DNA from: Sedimentisphaerales bacterium
GTDB lineage: Bacteria; Planctomycetota; Phycisphaerae; Sedimentisphaerales; SG8-4
Assembly: GCA_016928975.1 (NCBI GenBank)
Contig: JAFGJR010000209.1
Span: 1 to 10,933, forward strand
Direction of reading: 5' to 3'
DNA: 10,933 nt
The translations under genes were made by a program, and so were the position numbers. The first letter of the stretch is position 1. Each line of letters starts with the position of its first letter. The notes under the pieces were generated by a model. The model was not told the DNA's origin and did not search any database. It saw only the letters and a program-made list of their open reading frames with translations. This document shows, one piece after another, positions 5,690 to 10,228 of this stretch.

Positions 5690-6538
5690 ATGCCAATCAA
5701 TGACCGGCTGGATCCGGACCTCATACTGGCCAACTTGAGGACCAAGCGGGTCGGGAGAGAGGTGCTCGTCTATGAGCAGACAGCGAGCACCAATGACATC
5801 CTCGTCGAGTACGCGAGAAACTCACGCCATGATGGACTCGTGGTCTTTGCCGAAGAGCAGACGGCCGGTCGCGGCCGCAGCGGAGCCAGATGGCACAGCA
5901 ACGCGGGTCACAGCCTGTTGTTCTCCATCCTGCTAACGGATTGCGAAATCGGCGGCGAGCTGCTCTCGCTCACGTGCGCCGTCGCGGTGACCGAGGCGAT
6001 CGGCCAGGTGGGACCCCACTACGCCGCGATCAAGTGGCCCAACGACATCCTGCTCGCCGGCCGAAAGGTCGCCGGCATCCTCATTGAAAATCAAGGATCA
6101 AAGATCAAAAATCAAAAATGTCATTGCAGGGAGGCCGGAGAGACCTGCAGCCTAAAGCGTACAGCCTCCAGCCTGTTCGTCGTCGGTATCGGCATCAACT
6201 GCCATCAGACACAGGACGACTTCCCGCCTGAGTTACGAGAGATCGCAACGAGCCTTGACCTGGTCGCCGGCACGCGATGCCGTCGCGTGACTGTCGCTCG
6301 ACGAGTGCTCACGTCACTGGATCACTGGCTCAACGTAGCCGAGCGAGACAGCCACCGAGTGACAGAAACCTGGAGCCGCCTGAGCATGCAGTTGAATCAA
6401 CGTGTCACCCTCTCCTGCAACCGTCGCCGCTTCACCGGCAACTGCATCGGCGTCGACCCGGAGAAGGGTCTGATCCTCCAGCTCGACCGCGGCGGCGTCC
6501 GAATGTTCGACGCCGCCCACACCCACATCGTCAAGTGA
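5690..6538 (+). CDS. birA: Biotin--[acetyl-CoA-carboxylase] ligase, no HTH domain
   Basis: This 282-residue enzyme (EC 6.3.4.15) activates biotin with ATP and attaches it to the carrier protein of biotin carboxylases. Visible motifs are TASTND (26-31), the biotinyl-AMP loop AGRGRSGARWHSN (60-72), IKWPNDIL (109-116), VAGILIE (121-127) and VVGIGIN (163-169). The C-terminal SH3-like domain has GLILQLDRGG. There is no N-terminal helix-turn-helix domain, so it is a group I ligase and not a repressor. Between GILIE and FVVGIGIN sits an extra stretch of about 29 residues encoded by 6089-6175, largely two heptanucleotide tandem repeats. The family normally has a loop of only a few residues there, so it should tolerate the insert. 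The gene ends 8 bp from the convergent TA operon, and its 3' end is duplicated at 7162-7298. Confidence 0.93.
   Translation: MPINDRLDPDLILANLRTKRVGREVLVYEQTASTNDILVEYARNSRHDGLVVFAEEQTAGRGRSGARWHSNAGHSLLFSILLTDCEIGGELLSLTCAVAVTEAIGQVGPHYAAIKWPNDILLAGRKVAGILIENQGSKIKNQKCHCREAGETCSLKRTASSLFVVGIGINCHQTQDDFPPELREIATSLDLVAGTRCRRVTVARRVLTSLDHWLNVAERDSHRVTETWSRLSMQLNQRVTLSCNRRRFTGNCIGVDPEKGLILQLDRGGVRMFDAAHTHIVK
6090..6117. repeat. Heptanucleotide tandem repeat inside birA (ATCAARR x4)
   Basis: Four head-to-tail 7-mers: ATCAAGG, ATCAAAG, ATCAAAA and ATCAAAA, followed by ATG. They are strongly A-rich in a GC-rich gene and lie at a loop where the BirA family has no such sequence. Seven is not a multiple of three, so gain or loss of one unit would shift the birA frame. 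Confidence 0.85.
6144..6175. repeat. Second heptanucleotide tandem repeat inside birA (CCTNNAG x4)
   Basis: Units are CCTGCAG, CCTAAAG, CGTACAG and CCTCCAG, followed by a partial CCTG. The sequence is unrelated to the array at 6090-6117, but has the same 7-bp period and lies in the same insertion of birA. Heptanucleotide short tandem repeats (STRR) are an established repeat class in filamentous cyanobacteria; this resembles them in form only. Confidence 0.75.
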
Positions 6539-6546
6539 CCGGCTGT

Positions 6547-6822
6547 CTACGCCGACGCGCGAAGCTTCTCCTGCAACCAGAGGTTAATTAGAGTCTCGGT
6601 GGATACGCCCTGTTGGCGCGCCTGCCTGCGCACCTGTCGCAGCAGATCCTTCGCTACCGGACAATACACCTTGCTTGAGGACAAGTCAACCTCCACTTCG
6701 ACCGGTTCCATGTCCTCTTCATAGTCCGCGGTACTGTGAGTATCCCAGAAATCCGATAGCTCCTCAAGCGTCTCGAAACTCTCCGGCAGGACATCTTTGC
6801 GTGCTGGCTCTCTATCTTGCAT
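6547..6822 (-). CDS. BrnA/CopG-family antitoxin
   Basis: This 91-residue protein looks like the antitoxin of a BrnT/BrnA-type module. Residues 17-40 carry the acidic FWDTHSTADYEEDMEP segment typical of the CopG_antitoxin family (PF12441), which wraps the toxin. Residues about 44-88 (VEVDLSSSKVYCPVAKDLL..., GVSTETLINLWLQEKL) fit a ribbon-helix-helix DNA-binding domain. The start at 6822 overlaps the toxin gene by 11 bp and has AAGGAG 10 nt upstream, so the two are translationally coupled. The antitoxin should both bind the toxin and repress the operon promoter near 7136-7164. Toxin-first order is usual for brnTA. Confidence 0.85.
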   Translation of the reverse strand: MQDREPARKDVLPESFETLEELSDFWDTHSTADYEEDMEPVEVEVDLSSSKVYCPVAKDLLRQVRRQARQQGVSTETLINLWLQEKLRASA

Positions 6823-7093
6823 AGCCTTTTCGCTCCTTGTCGTCCATATCCCGCGAACTCAATATCAGCGCCTCATTGGTCATCTTGTGGATGAAGAAGA
6901 CGACCAGATAGCGACCTGCACTTGTTTGCCCCAAAGCGCGATAGACATCTTCGCCGCGATAGCGCCCTCTGTTCATTCGCTTGATTCTTGGCTGCCTACG
7001 GAAGACTTGTTCCACTTCATCGGGAACCACTCCGTGCTTGGTCTCAAGCTTCTCGACGATTTCCTCCAGCCAGATCAAGCCTGCCATCCTCAT
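6812..7093 (-). CDS. BrnT-family (DUF497) toxin
   Basis: This 93-residue protein is a probable ribonuclease toxin with the BrnT/RelE-like fold. Evidence: the N-terminal helix with EIVEKLETKHGV (11-22, the KHGV motif), EVEQVF (26-31), a RYRGEDVYRALGQT strand region (44-57), the hydrophobic strand RYLVVFFIH (61-69), and a C-terminal SSRDM...ERKGYAR. The last is in the position of the conserved arginine/acidic catalytic motif of the family. The start at 7093 is preceded by GAGGA at 7 nt; an ATG two codons later (7087) is an alternative. It is first in its operon and overlaps the antitoxin by 11 bp. Catalytic residues are inferred from the family, not tested. Confidence 0.87.
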   Translation of the reverse strand: MRMAGLIWLEEIVEKLETKHGVVPDEVEQVFRRQPRIKRMNRGRYRGEDVYRALGQTSAGRYLVVFFIHKMTNEALILSSRDMDDKERKGYAR

Positions 7094-7135
7094 CAGTCAT
7101 TCCTCGACATCCGAATTGTCCTTTCTTACCGTTGC

Positions 7136-7164
7136 ATAATAGCATGCGCCGCCCGATCCGTCAA
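7136..7164 (-). promoter_or_regulatory. Sigma70-type promoter of the BrnTA-like operon
   Basis: On the minus strand the -35 TTGACG (7164-7159) and the -10 TATTAT (7141-7136) are 17 bp apart. The transcript would start near 7129, giving a leader of about 35 nt to the toxin ATG. The -35 box lies at the boundary of the birA-like fragment that starts at 7162. Confidence 0.6.
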
Positions 7165-7298
7165 CCGATCACCGTCCTCTCTGATAGCAGGGCTCTGCGA
7201 GCAACTGCATCAGCGTGGACCCCGAGAAGGGTCTGATCCTCCAACTCGACCGCGGCGGCATCCGAATGCTCGACGCCGCACACGCGACCATCGCCAAG
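7162..7298 (+). pseudogene. birA: Fragment of a birA 3' end (frameshifted remnant)
   Basis: Positions 7201-7298 align without gaps to 6438-6535 of birA at 86 of 98 bases by eye (about 88%). They encode NCISVDPEKGLILQLDRGG and beyond, the BirA C-terminal domain. The stretch 7162-7200 encodes QPITVLSDSRALR, which matches QRVTLSCNRRRFT of birA in length and position but has diverged strongly. One base is missing between 7200 and 7201, shifting the frame, and the stop codon of birA is not present at the end. It is therefore a dead tail of a birA allele, not a gene. The BrnTA-like operon lies between it and the intact birA. Confidence 0.85.
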
Positions 7299-7332
7299 AC
7301 ACAAGCAGTTCGAATGGGCTCGTTGTTCGCCT

Positions 7333-7426
7333 GTAGAGACGCAAGATTTTGCGTCTCCAACGTAGTCGCATTTCCTACGCCCTGGGTAACGCCGTACACG
7401 CGAGACGCAAAATCTTGTGTCTCTAC
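7333..7426. repeat. REP-like inverted hairpin pair (second BIME-like element)
   Basis: GTAG (7333-7336) precedes hairpin AGACGCAA-GATT-TTGCGTCT (7337-7356). The mirrored unit AGACGCAA-AATC-TTGTGTCT (7403-7422, one G-T wobble) is followed by CTAC (7423-7426). The centre holds a further small hairpin, CGTAG (7361-7365) with CTACG (7375-7379). The outer units are near-identical inverted copies. The GTAG foot plus hairpin is the same plan as at 1542-1597, but the stem sequence is unrelated, so two REP-like families are present. Confidence 0.65.
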
Positions 7427-7434
7427 AATGATCA

Positions 7435-7484
7435 GGGGGCTTCGCCCCCCGGCCGGTGACTGGCCTCGCTCCGCGGGCCGTCAC
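7435..7484. terminator. Two stem-loops after the FGE-fold gene
   Basis: Downstream of the FGE-fold gene stop (minus strand) comes a 9-bp stem with one bulged base: GTGAC and GGCC at 7456-7465 pair with GGCC and GTCAC at 7476-7484. Then comes GGGGGC-TTC-GCCCCC (7435-7449). Position suits transcript termination or 3' end protection, but no U-tract follows either stem, so intrinsic termination is uncertain. Confidence 0.3.
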
Positions 7485-7497
7485 TCCGCCAACTCTG

Positions 7498-10143
7498 TTA
7501 AGGGTAGGACGGCGTTGTCCTCGCGAGGCGAAGCCCCAGGTAGTCGCGCCGGTAGCCGGGCGTGCCCCCGCCGCGATTCGCGGACCGGCAGAGCCCGGCG
7601 CTGCCGCTCCACCTGCCGCCCCGGAGGACCCGGAGATCGCCCGAACGGGGGCCAAGCGGGTCCACGACCACACCACTGCCATAGTCCCCATACCAGTCCG
7701 CACACCATTCCCAGACATTGCCATGCATGTCATAGAGGCCAAAGGCATTCGCTGCCTTCTGCCCCACTGGATGCGTTGTTGAGCTGCTATTTGACCCATA
7801 CCATGCCCATTGACCAAGGCTGGAATCGTTGTCACCAAAACAGTAGGCACCCACGGCCCCCGCCCGACAGGCATACTCCCACTCGGCCTCCGTCAACAAG
7901 CGGTACGTCCCTCTCGGAACATACTCCATATCACACAGCATGGTCAGGAATGCCTGGCAATCCTCCCAACTCACCTCCTCCACAGGGGCATCCGCGCCAG
8001 CGCCCCCGAAAAATGATGGGTTGCTGCCCATCACCTGCCGCCACTGGCCCTGCGTCACCTCGTACTTGCCACAATAGAAGGCTCTGGTCAGCGTCACTTG
8101 GTGCTGCGTCTCGTCGCTGTCACGGCCGCCTTCGCTCGACGGGCTGCCCATGGTGAAGCTCCCAGTGGGGACCAAGCACAACGCGATCCCCGTCTGACGT
8201 GTTCTGACCTCCAAGGGCAGGCCAAGGTCCTCCACCGCTTGAGCCTGACGCGCCTGGGCCTCCTCACTGGCCGAAGCAAGACCCGTCAGAGGAGCGTATT
8301 GAGCATCGGCAACCTCCACCAGGTCAGGGGGCAGAGGCTGGCTCCCAGGTGTCGGCGGCGTGGCCCTCGCGAGGCGAAGCCCCCCGGCATACCCGCGAGA
8401 GCTGGGTATGCCCGCGCTGCGAATCGCGGACCGGCATTCGCTGGCGATATTGTGCCAGCCACCGCCCCGAGAGACCCGGTAATCGCCCCGGGGGCCAAGC
8501 GGGTCCACGACCACACCACTGCCATAGTCCCCATACCAGTCCGCACACCATTCCCAGACATTGCCATGCATGTCGTAGAGGCCCCAGGCATTGCAGAGCT
8601 TCTGACCCACTGCGTGCGTTGTATCGCCGCTGTTCCTGTCATACCAGGCAATTCGGTCAAGGGTGACATCCTCGCCTGTGATGTTCGTTAGCGAGCCGTT
8701 GTACAGGGGCGTCTGCGTCCCCGCCCGACATGCATACTCCCACTCGGCCTCCGTCAGCAAGCGGTACGTCCCTTCCGGAACACCCTCCATCTCACACACC
8801 CTGGTCAGGAATGCTTGGCAGTTGTCCCAACTCACCTGCTCCACAGGGGCATCCTGGCCGGCGGTCCTGAACCACGACGGGTTGGTCGTCATCACCTGCT
8901 GCCACTGCCTCTGTGTAACCTCATACTTGGCGCAGTAGAACGGCCTGCTCAATGTCACCTGATGCTGCGTCTCGTTGCTATAACGCCCGCTTTCACTCAG
9001 CGGGCTCCCCATGGTGAAGCTCCCGGCAGGGACCAGGCGCAACACGATCCCGGTCTGGCGGGTCTTGACCTCCAAAGGCAGGCCAAGGCTCTCCACCGCT
9101 TGAGCCTGACGCGTCTGGGCCTCCTCACTGCCCGAAGCAAGACCCGTCAGAGGAGCGTATTGAGCATCGGCAACCTCCATCAGGTCAGCGGGCAGAGGCT
9201 GGCTCCCGGGTGGCGGTGGCGTGGCCCTCGCGAGGCGAAGGCCCAAGCTGGTGAAGCAGACGCCGGGCGAGCTTGACTCGCGATTCGCGGACCGGCAGCG
9301 TCTGGCGAAGCCGCTCCAACCGCCGCCCCGGTGGACCCGGCTAGCGCCCCCAAACGGGTCCACGACCGCACTTCCATAAGCCCCATACCTGTCCTCACAC
9401 CATTCCCAAACATTGCCATGCATGTCATAGAGGCCAAAGGCATTCGCTGCCTTCTGCCCCACTGGATGCGTTGTCCCGCCGCTATTCGACACAGACCATG
9501 CCCATTGGCCAAGGCCGGAATCGCTGTCACCACAACAAAACGCACCCACGGTGCCCGCTCGACATGCGTATTCCCACTCGGCCTCCGTCAACAAACGGTA
9601 CGTCCCTTCCGGAACACCCTCCATCTGACACAGCATGGTCACGAATGCCTGGCAACCGTTCCAAGTCGCCTGCTCTACAGGGGCATCCTGACCGGCGCCA
9701 GGGAAACATGATGGGTTGCTGCCCATCACCTGCTGCCACTGCCCCTGCGTCACCTCGTACTTGCCGCAGTAGAAGGCCTGGCTCACTGTCACCTGACGCT
9801 GCGTCTCGTCGCTGTCGCGGCCGCCTTCGCTCGGCGGGCTCCCCATGGTGAAGCTCCCGGCAGGGACCAGGCGCAACGCGATCCCCGTCTGCCGTGTCCT
9901 GACCTCCAAAGGCAGGCCGAGGTCCTCCACCGCTTGAGCCTGACGCGCCTGGGCCTCCGCACTGCCCCAAGCAAGACCCGCCAGAGGAGCGTATTGGGCA
10001 TCGGCAACCTCCACCAAATCATCAGGCAGAGACAACTCCTCCGATACCGGAGAAGGTGTGCCTGCCTGGCCAGATGCCAAGCTGGCGAATAGGAGTATCA
10101 GACGAACAGGGAATGGCACGGTCAGTACGCGATTCGACATCAT
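7498..10143 (-). CDS. Exported protein with three tandem FGE-sulfatase (SUMF1/C-lectin fold) domains
   Basis: This protein of about 881 residues starts at 10143, where AAGGAGG lies 7 nt upstream; an in-frame ATG at 10221 lacks such a site. Residues 1-27 form a Sec signal peptide (RLILLFASLASGQA). Three units follow, about 39-313, 314-600 and 601-881, joined by Pro-rich linkers (TPPPPGSQPLP). Each has GSFTMGSP, KYEVTQ, YRLLTEAEWEYACRAG, GLYDMHGNVWEWC, RGGxW, CRSAxR and GLRLAR, typical of FGE-sulfatase domain PF03781. Each RGG-to-GLRLAR stretch keeps one conserved Cys (CRSA) where true formylglycine-generating enzymes have a Cys pair. Sulfatase activation is therefore unlikely, and no sulfatase gene is nearby. 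A binding or surface role is more plausible. The final stretch of each unit is hypervariable. No neighbour suggests a partner. Confidence 0.9.
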   Translation of the reverse strand: MMSNRVLTVPFPVRLILLFASLASGQAGTPSPVSEELSLPDDLVEVADAQYAPLAGLAWGSAEAQARQAQAVEDLGLPLEVRTRQTGIALRLVPAGSFTMGSPPSEGGRDSDETQRQVTVSQAFYCGKYEVTQGQWQQVMGSNPSCFPGAGQDAPVEQATWNGCQAFVTMLCQMEGVPEGTYRLLTEAEWEYACRAGTVGAFCCGDSDSGLGQWAWSVSNSGGTTHPVGQKAANAFGLYDMHGNVWEWCEDRYGAYGSAVVDPFGGASRVHRGGGWSGFARRCRSANRESSSPGVCFTSLGLRLARATPPPPGSQPLPADLMEVADAQYAPLTGLASGSEEAQTRQAQAVESLGLPLEVKTRQTGIVLRLVPAGSFTMGSPLSESGRYSNETQHQVTLSRPFYCAKYEVTQRQWQQVMTTNPSWFRTAGQDAPVEQVSWDNCQAFLTRVCEMEGVPEGTYRLLTEAEWEYACRAGTQTPLYNGSLTNITGEDVTLDRIAWYDRNSGDTTHAVGQKLCNAWGLYDMHGNVWEWCADWYGDYGSGVVVDPLGPRGDYRVSRGGGWHNIASECRSAIRSAGIPSSRGYAGGLRLARATPPTPGSQPLPPDLVEVADAQYAPLTGLASASEEAQARQAQAVEDLGLPLEVRTRQTGIALCLVPTGSFTMGSPSSEGGRDSDETQHQVTLTRAFYCGKYEVTQGQWRQVMGSNPSFFGGAGADAPVEEVSWEDCQAFLTMLCDMEYVPRGTYRLLTEAEWEYACRAGAVGAYCFGDNDSSLGQWAWYGSNSSSTTHPVGQKAANAFGLYDMHGNVWEWCADWYGDYGSGVVVDPLGPRSGDLRVLRGGRWSGSAGLCRSANRGGGTPGYRRDYLGLRLARTTPSYP
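7501..10029 (-). repeat. Intragenic tandem triplication (units of about 0.83-0.86 kb)
   Basis: Units on the minus strand: 10029-9205, 9204-8344 and 8343-7501. Similarity is visible in DNA, not only protein: 8273-8346 and 9134-9207 match at 72 of 74 bases. Within each unit, 114 bp near the end (9226-9339, 8365-8478, 7519-7632) alternate invariant codons with very variable ones. The repeats suggest recent duplication or ongoing gene conversion. Confidence 0.85.
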
Positions 10144-10199
10144 GGCCTTGCCTCCTTCAGAAACCGTGGTTTGCTTGCTGTGTGCGAGCAGACAAGCGC

Positions 10200-10228
10200 A
10201 TTGTACGAACAGACTGTCCAAAACGCAA
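10200..10228 (-). promoter_or_regulatory. Promoter of the FGE-fold gene
   Basis: On the minus strand, TTGCGT (10228-10223) and TACAAT (10205-10200) are 17 bp apart. The start site would be near 10193, giving a leader of about 50 nt with AAGGAGG before the ATG at 10143. The -10 box is good (5 of 6); the -35 is weak (3 of 6). Confidence 0.45.

Follow-up and report, generated by a model that had tools for sequence, protein, structure and literature searches.

The spread of chromosomal toxin-antitoxin (TA) pairs without a recognizable mobile element is an old question. According to the excerpts of the literature cited here, some restriction-modification systems can insert with long target duplications of variable length, on the order of 100 bp (PMC3874152, citing Nobusato 2000 and Furuta 2010), and prophage e14 left a duplicated gene end of 165 bp at Escherichia coli icd that shows 12 exchanges, with residues changed conservatively at 2 positions (PMC11148124). 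Also, homology-facilitated illegitimate recombination was proposed for displaced 3′ ends of Vibrio cholerae T6SS effector genes (PMC5361080), direct repeats beside one mycoplasma TA are mentioned as recombination scars (PMC8562856), and direct repeats, the majority shorter than 30 bp, were reported on both sides of 10 to 18% of the small variable segments of three other species (PMC2884548). No description of gene-end brackets around TA pairs was found in the literature searched, which lay mostly outside subscription journals.

In the window (the whole stretch analyzed, 10,933 nucleotides from a Sedimentisphaerales bacterium), the gene order is uvrB, nadC, birA, a minus-strand toxin-antitoxin pair and then the birA end once more, over 98 bp (Table 1). 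Based on the comparisons reported here, a BrnTA-type pair probably entered at the birA 3′ end by recombination with DNA that carried the birA end of another lineage.

Results

A toxin-antitoxin pair between two birA ends

The birA product scores 141.6 bits against TIGR00121 (cut-off 83.1), and the two tail copies reach a local score of 136, whereas none of 200 shuffles scores above 26 (E = 5.9e-30, window compared with itself). An earlier reading made from the letters (the sequence-only reading) had placed the end of an intact birA at 6538, a repeat of its last 98 bp at 7201-7298 and a TA pair between both tails. This arrangement is borne out, since 86 of the 98 positions are identical without gaps and both proteins of the interval exceed their Pfam cut-offs; the remnant also lacks a stop where birA has TGA, as had been stated. 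However, the same reading continued the remnant as diverged birA coding sequence back to 7162, with a lost base, and there similarity is undetectable. The segment 7131-7200 gives a best local score of 20 with the matching stretch of the window birA and of 72 relatives, under the 95% point of shuffles (24). When 7141-7300 was compared by blastn with 80 relatives' loci, 26 matched, 25 of the matches beginning at query base 61 or 63 (7201 and 7203) and only that of L049 at base 58. Moreover, QPITVLSDSR-like text is absent from all 120 BirA ends compared, window BirA included. On the basis of these three comparisons, birA homology of 7162-7200 is rejected.

Table 1. Features of the window and genes whose ends are repeated around TA loci of the same order.
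Locus	Feature	Position	Strand	Basis or repeat
Window	birA, biotin protein ligase, intact, 282 aa	5690..6538	+	PF03099 and TIGR00121 above cut-off
Window	Proximal tail copy, final 98 bp of birA ahead of the stop	6438..6535	+	86/98 identical to 7201-7298
Window	BrnA/CopG-type antitoxin, 91 aa	6547..6822	-	PF12441 39.7 bits (cut-off 28), ORF
Window	BrnT-type toxin, 93 aa	6812..7093	-	PF04365 40.4 bits (cut-off 34.5)
Window	Junction to remnant and presumed TA promoter region; birA similarity undetectable	7094..7200	.	Promoter presumed only
Window	Distal tail copy (remnant), apparently a different birA allele, stop lost	7201..7298	+	86/98 match, site-state test
L177, L200	DHQ synthase II			3′ end repeat
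L194	ETF-QO			3′ end repeat
L197	SNF2 helicase			3′ end repeat
L180	MnmE/TrmE-type GTPase			3′ end repeat
L165	YhcH/DUF386			3′ end repeat
L209	AccD-type			3′ end repeat
L223	Class II D/K/N tRNA synthetase			3′ end repeat
L262, L265	PurH			3′ end repeat
L283	TyrS/TrpS-type			3′ end repeat
L128	C5-epimerase C-terminus, barely over cut-off			3′ end repeat
L136, L140	No Pfam family			3′ end repeat
L154	DHH protein			5′ end repeat
L199	ABC ATPase			5′ end repeat

Four further features of the window were noted. Inside birA, positions 6086-6178 hold an insert of repeated ATCAAA-type text through which the frame stays open, and a similar yet different repeated text occupies this position in the birA of relative L010. 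Two near-palindromic GAGACGCAAGATTTTGCGTCTC-type units, 44 bp apart, lie just past the remnant (7332-7427). They are followed on the minus strand (7498-10221) by a single frame of 907 aa with three tandem FGE-sulfatase domains, 79 to 85% identical in DNA. A second possible TA pair is located at 157-667, where a YgiT-type zinc-finger protein is preceded by a protein of 103 aa that matches no Pfam family.

In TA pairs of the BrnT/BrnA type, a ribonuclease toxin is neutralized by the antitoxin, and the toxin gene usually comes first. The putative window pair is convergent with birA, the antitoxin stop being 8 bp from the birA stop. It resembles the BrnT/BrnA type II systems in that both proteins lie over Pfam cut-offs (PF04365 for BrnT, PF12441 for CopG_antitoxin), the genes overlap (by 11 bp) and the toxin gene is upstream of the antitoxin gene. 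It is unlike them in its antitoxin, which reaches 27.5 bits with the NCBIfam BrnA equivalog NF047399, below the cut-off of 60. Also, no NCBIfam family matched the toxin.

Matches to the window antitoxin were found at 10 places in 7 of the 15 relatives' genomes. The closest homologue of the pair outside birA is an 82% identical pair at the 5′ end of an ABC-ATPase gene in G005 (L081), and G002 has an antitoxin at 79% without a toxin match (L083). Three of the 10 loci are bracketed, L081 by copies of the ABC-ATPase gene 5′ end with its upstream region (106 bp, 86%), L090 by ETF-QO ends (154 bp, 98%) and L089 by DHQ synthase II ends (85 bp, 74%). The antitoxin partner in L089 is probably not BrnT, because the PF04365 search described below did not list this locus.

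As the sequence-only reading had said, an integrase is absent, within the nine window ORFs scanned. This bears on the explanation that such loci are remains or satellites of integrase-driven elements, which would attach at the 3′ ends of genes and supply a substitute for the tail. The duplicated icd end left by e14, as excerpted from its report, has the same look. Nonetheless, in addition to the missing integrase, the intervals between repeats are mostly 0.6-0.8 kb and give room for little beyond the TA, at least ten different target genes would demand many integrases, searches of plasmid and phage collections gave no match to the window TA interval, and viral contigs yielded no confirmed relative of the window antitoxin. 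This origin is considered improbable. For the collections searched, a plasmid or phage carrier is rejected.

The distal birA end and the alleles of relatives

The nearest matches of the window NadC come from Planctomycetota MAGs, which in many cases are labeled Phycisphaerae or Sedimentisphaerales (85% to L001). By means of nadC, 80 loci of relatives were located, and 72 of these include birA with its end. Relatives with a full second birA at this place, which according to the sequence-only reading would make the remnant a decayed paralogue, were looked for; the count is 0 of 72 loci, with short downstream DNA in a few (30 bp in L006), and a decayed birA paralogue is rejected on these grounds. 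Beyond 7300, the window DNA has no match in the relatives except three matches of 65-68 bp in L047, and second-end matches of 13-19 letters in L013, L062, L065, L073 and L077 were taken as chance.

In L010 the same birA-antitoxin junction as in the window is present with a truncated toxin, and 894 of 1,238 aligned columns (44 gaps) are identical over gene, junction and TA; no second birA end follows, which is counted against recombination at the gene end. In L035 there is a second birA end (89 bp, 85%), and part of a minus-strand downstream gene (weak Ig-like match) is doubled with it in tandem (5873-9275). This last case would favor a tandem duplication from inside birA into the downstream TA, with later loss of the second TA copy. 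For the window, however, such an origin is highly improbable, given the allelic differences between the birA copies and the lack of any second TA copy when the window is compared with itself.

At 8 of the 12 sites where the tail copies differ, the remnant base is present among the birA genes of 12 relatives, whereas random changes at matched codon positions give a mean of 2.7 sites (P = 0.0006). The remaining 4 changes are in none of the 12 relatives, as expected for a decaying remnant. Compared with relative L007, the intact tail is identical at 91 of 98 positions and the remnant at 81 of 98, so that either tail may have been the resident one. By its site states, the remnant appears to derive from another birA allele rather than from a fresh duplication of the window birA. 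The sequence-only reading had come to the same view; the conclusion stands, but the evidence offered for it (QPITVLSDSRALR) does not. Between the window copies there are 5 synonymous and 9 non-synonymous differences, counts that fit drift as well as an allele, so that the two are separated in this case by the site-state test only.

Differences between repeat copies pooled over loci

The question of alleles or drift was also addressed with 16 coding cases: the window, L035 and 14 TA loci. Three of them (window, L035, L128) were trimmed at the stop by hand. Pooled, they show 88 synonymous and 72 non-synonymous differences (pS 0.27, pN 0.063). An omega of 0.55, the value assumed for a remnant that drifts freely beside a constrained gene, is rejected by these counts (P = 5e-8), and against an omega of 0.3 the synonymous excess is marginal (P = 0.065). 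Taken singly, L136, L262, L177, L209, L128 and L035 give P < 0.05 against omega 0.55, uncorrected over 16 tests, and the window together with nine other cases shows no single significance. Moreover, between the purH remnants of L262 and L265, 12 of 55 bases but 1 of 18 residues are different, that of L265 having been lengthened by 5 bases to its stop for the comparison. In this comparison of two genomes, neither purH end stood out as the imported one. The pooled synonymous excess and the purH pattern suggest that many of the ends were probably functional until shortly before becoming remnants.

These differences are relevant to a strict long target duplication, in which a transposition-like insertion copies the recipient's own target of ~100 bp and the copies differ by later drift. 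Anatomy and length agree with the restriction-modification insertions reported in the excerpt of PMC3874152, and several pairs are nearly identical, namely L153 (98.2%, a repeat not assigned to a gene end), L194 (98.1%), L197 (97.6%) and L165 (96.4%). In L194, the 3 differences are all non-synonymous, which fits a fresh duplication. However, the synonymous excess in the six loci listed above, the states that the birA remnant has in common with relatives and the purH remnants, with so many base changes and one residue change, speak against it, and strict target duplication is held to be unlikely.

Recurrence of brackets around toxin-antitoxin loci

The sequence-only reading had suggested looking for TA modules that sit at the ends of other genes between tail copies. 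A locus was called bracketed when the match lay between the two copies of a direct repeat (length 40 bp or more, E <= 1e-3) whose separation was below 1.5 kb. The BrnT set came from a PF04365 search of 159 genomes of the window organism's order and includes all 78 places, with L199 and L200 added by hand. In this set, 16 of 80 loci are bracketed (14 of 78 without the two additions). One of the 14, L194, is the L090 of the antitoxin search and had already been found bracketed there, and L191 and L193 correspond to L085 and L086 of that search, which are not bracketed. Control positions in the same stretches are bracketed in 156 of 7,010 cases, and with one random position per BrnT locus the number bracketed averages 1.6 and never exceeds 6 (2,000 draws). 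The 64 of 80 BrnT loci without a bracket are counted against recombination at the gene end.

Brackets also occur around other TA families, in 6 of 30 RelE and 4 of 30 HicA loci, whereas the non-TA controls show them in 1 of 30 (GNAT) and 0 of 30 (glyoxalase), the best 30 loci being used for each family and the ages of the controls not being matched to those of the TA. The search is thus positive, with 24 of 138 TA loci bracketed (BrnT 14/78, RelE 6/30, HicA 4/30) against 1 of 60 non-TA loci (Fisher P = 0.0008), although bracketed loci are not all independent and the genomes are mostly metagenome-assembled. Flanks were 1.5 kb for RelE, HicA, GNAT and glyoxalase and about 6 kb for BrnT; with flanks cut to 1.5 kb, 17 of 72 BrnT loci are bracketed. 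At least 600 bp are available on both sides in 24 RelE, 28 HicA, 27 GNAT and 72 of 80 BrnT loci. Since L136 is on a contig of 5.06 Mb, misjoined short contigs are no explanation for its bracket. In a phylum-wide BrnT sample, 5 of the 30 loci returned are bracketed, with gaps of 464, 584, 877, 962 and 1360 bp, so at most two of them resemble the pattern of the order.

Target genes, repeat ends and inserts

The bracket repeats at TA loci of the order measure 43-291 bp, compared with 98 bp in the window. Among 26 bracketed loci (two by hand), the repeat is a gene 3′ end in 14 and a 5′ end in 2 (Table 1). The other 10 are repeats without an assigned gene end, and this is counted against recombination at the gene end. 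By BLAST, 13 of 14 3′-end cases (window included) stop at -7 to +3 of the stop codon and L283 stops at -22; in L128 and L035 the similarity continues past the stop codon. That most 3′-end repeats stop at the stop codon is a further argument against strict target duplication.

The gap between repeats is 460-1001 bp in the 16 brackets of the BrnT set and 596-771 bp in 14 of them, and in L136 and L194 the presumed antitoxin stop abuts the repeat. The insert is therefore little more than the TA. At the purH end, L262 and L265 have related HicA genes and a further small gene, both loci being bracketed by purH ends.

A different arrangement is seen at an ETF-QO end in L336 (G005:C169, 2019-4121, minus strand), where a glycoside hydrolase family 2 frame runs into the last part of ETF-QO (PF05187), followed by ETF-QO-like downstream DNA and then by an ankyrin-type gene. 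Judged from these frames, L336 would be a gene-end joint with non-TA DNA. The cargo is not always a TA (L035 at birA, L336 at ETF-QO), which is counted against recombination at the gene end.

Empty sites at ETF-QO and a hot spot at DHQ synthase II

The ETF-QO gene was found in 14 of the 15 genomes, and three of them have two copies of its end. These copies enclose BrnT in G001, whereas in G011 and G012 they enclose a HEPN/nucleotidyltransferase pair (PF05168 and PF01909 matches in the G012 insert). The three distal flanks each match the post-stop flank of one of the 11 insert-free genomes, with scores of 157 (G016), 134 (G008) and 141 (G009), the 99% point of the null being at most 30. On the TA side, the DNA after the intact ETF-QO stop has no match in the 11 insert-free genomes (scores at most 16), and terminator-like DNA was seen by eye after ETF-QO. 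Relatives without the insert thus show the empty site, and the distal copy stands in native flanking DNA.

G011 and G012 have the insert and the intact ETF-QO end in common (insert identical at 831 of 925 positions), whereas their distal flanks are unrelated and each matches another relative (391/441 and 394/442). This places a recombination joint within the gene end. For a joint in the gene end with unrelated distal flanks, entry of a circle gives the same product as one homologous and one illegitimate joint.

DHQ synthase II was also found in 14 of the 15 genomes, and its 3′ end is a hot spot, different small TA or TA-like genes standing directly after the gene in 5 of the 14. Genes of this kind follow it in G001, G005, G006 and G016; the small gene of G003 resembles, by eye, that of G005. 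Remnants were found in G005 and G006 alone, and neither has an empty-site flank that matches, which is counted against recombination at the gene end.

Discussion

The same anatomy occurs around BrnT, RelE, HicA and HEPN/nucleotidyltransferase pairs at many Planctomycetota gene ends. Brackets that recur around unrelated TA pairs suggest that these enter the chromosome by gene-end recombination without an enzyme of their own, and recombination is ranked above both strict target duplication and ends made by an integrase. In the proposed sequence, the gene end of another lineage would arrive together with the TA and recombine into the resident gene end. A circle would do this by a single crossover, a linear fragment by means of a homologous joint on one side and an illegitimate joint on the other. 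The joint in the gene end would be made by RecA-type homologous recombination, and no integrase or transposase would be needed. As a result, one end copy would complete birA, with the TA operon (about 0.55 kb plus promoter) directly after the stop, and the second, allelic end would stay beyond the TA as a non-coding remnant. Retention of the inserts may be explained by TA addiction.

A more far-reaching possibility, which we regard as rather doubtful, is that the TA pairs in Planctomycetota are minimal cassettes whose sole mobility device is a borrowed host gene end. In this case, recombination between the two ends would free a circle with one end and the TA, which would re-enter the same gene of another cell by single crossover, and addiction would penalize loss.

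With regard to the old question of TA spread, the scar is common to several unrelated TA families and consists of a gene end present twice, often as two alleles; this names the joint and predicts empty sites. For a phylum that is mostly uncultured, it also points to where accessory DNA enters, namely at the 3′ ends of such conserved genes as ETF-QO, DHQ synthase II and purH.

Finally, the brackets can be compared with the described systems, as far as the excerpts cited cover them. In V. cholerae (PMC5361080) there are, as may be the case here, one homologous and one non-homologous joint and an old 3′ end pushed downstream, but there a related module displaces the toxin gene's own end, whereas here the end of an unrelated housekeeping gene is doubled around the TA. 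As with e14 at icd (PMC11148124), an incoming end would replace the gene end, with mostly silent differences, and the old end would lie beyond the insert; e14, however, is a prophage with an integrase, and here there is a TA only, with no integrase in the ORFs scanned. The restriction-modification insertions (PMC3874152) are also a selfish two-gene unit without a transposase between variable direct duplications of ~100 bp. They differ from the present loci, which involve several TA families, often at the stop codons of conserved genes, in Planctomycetota, and whose pooled copies look allelic. Direct repeats of ~100 bp are found here as in those insertions, and copies identical at insertion would fit a few cases such as L194, but neither the pooled loci nor the birA remnant; an empty site is seen at ETF-QO, while DHQ synthase II gives no flank match. 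This comparison suggests that the gene-end brackets are a variant of insertion with long target duplication, set apart by its TA cargo and by the allelic look of its pooled copies.
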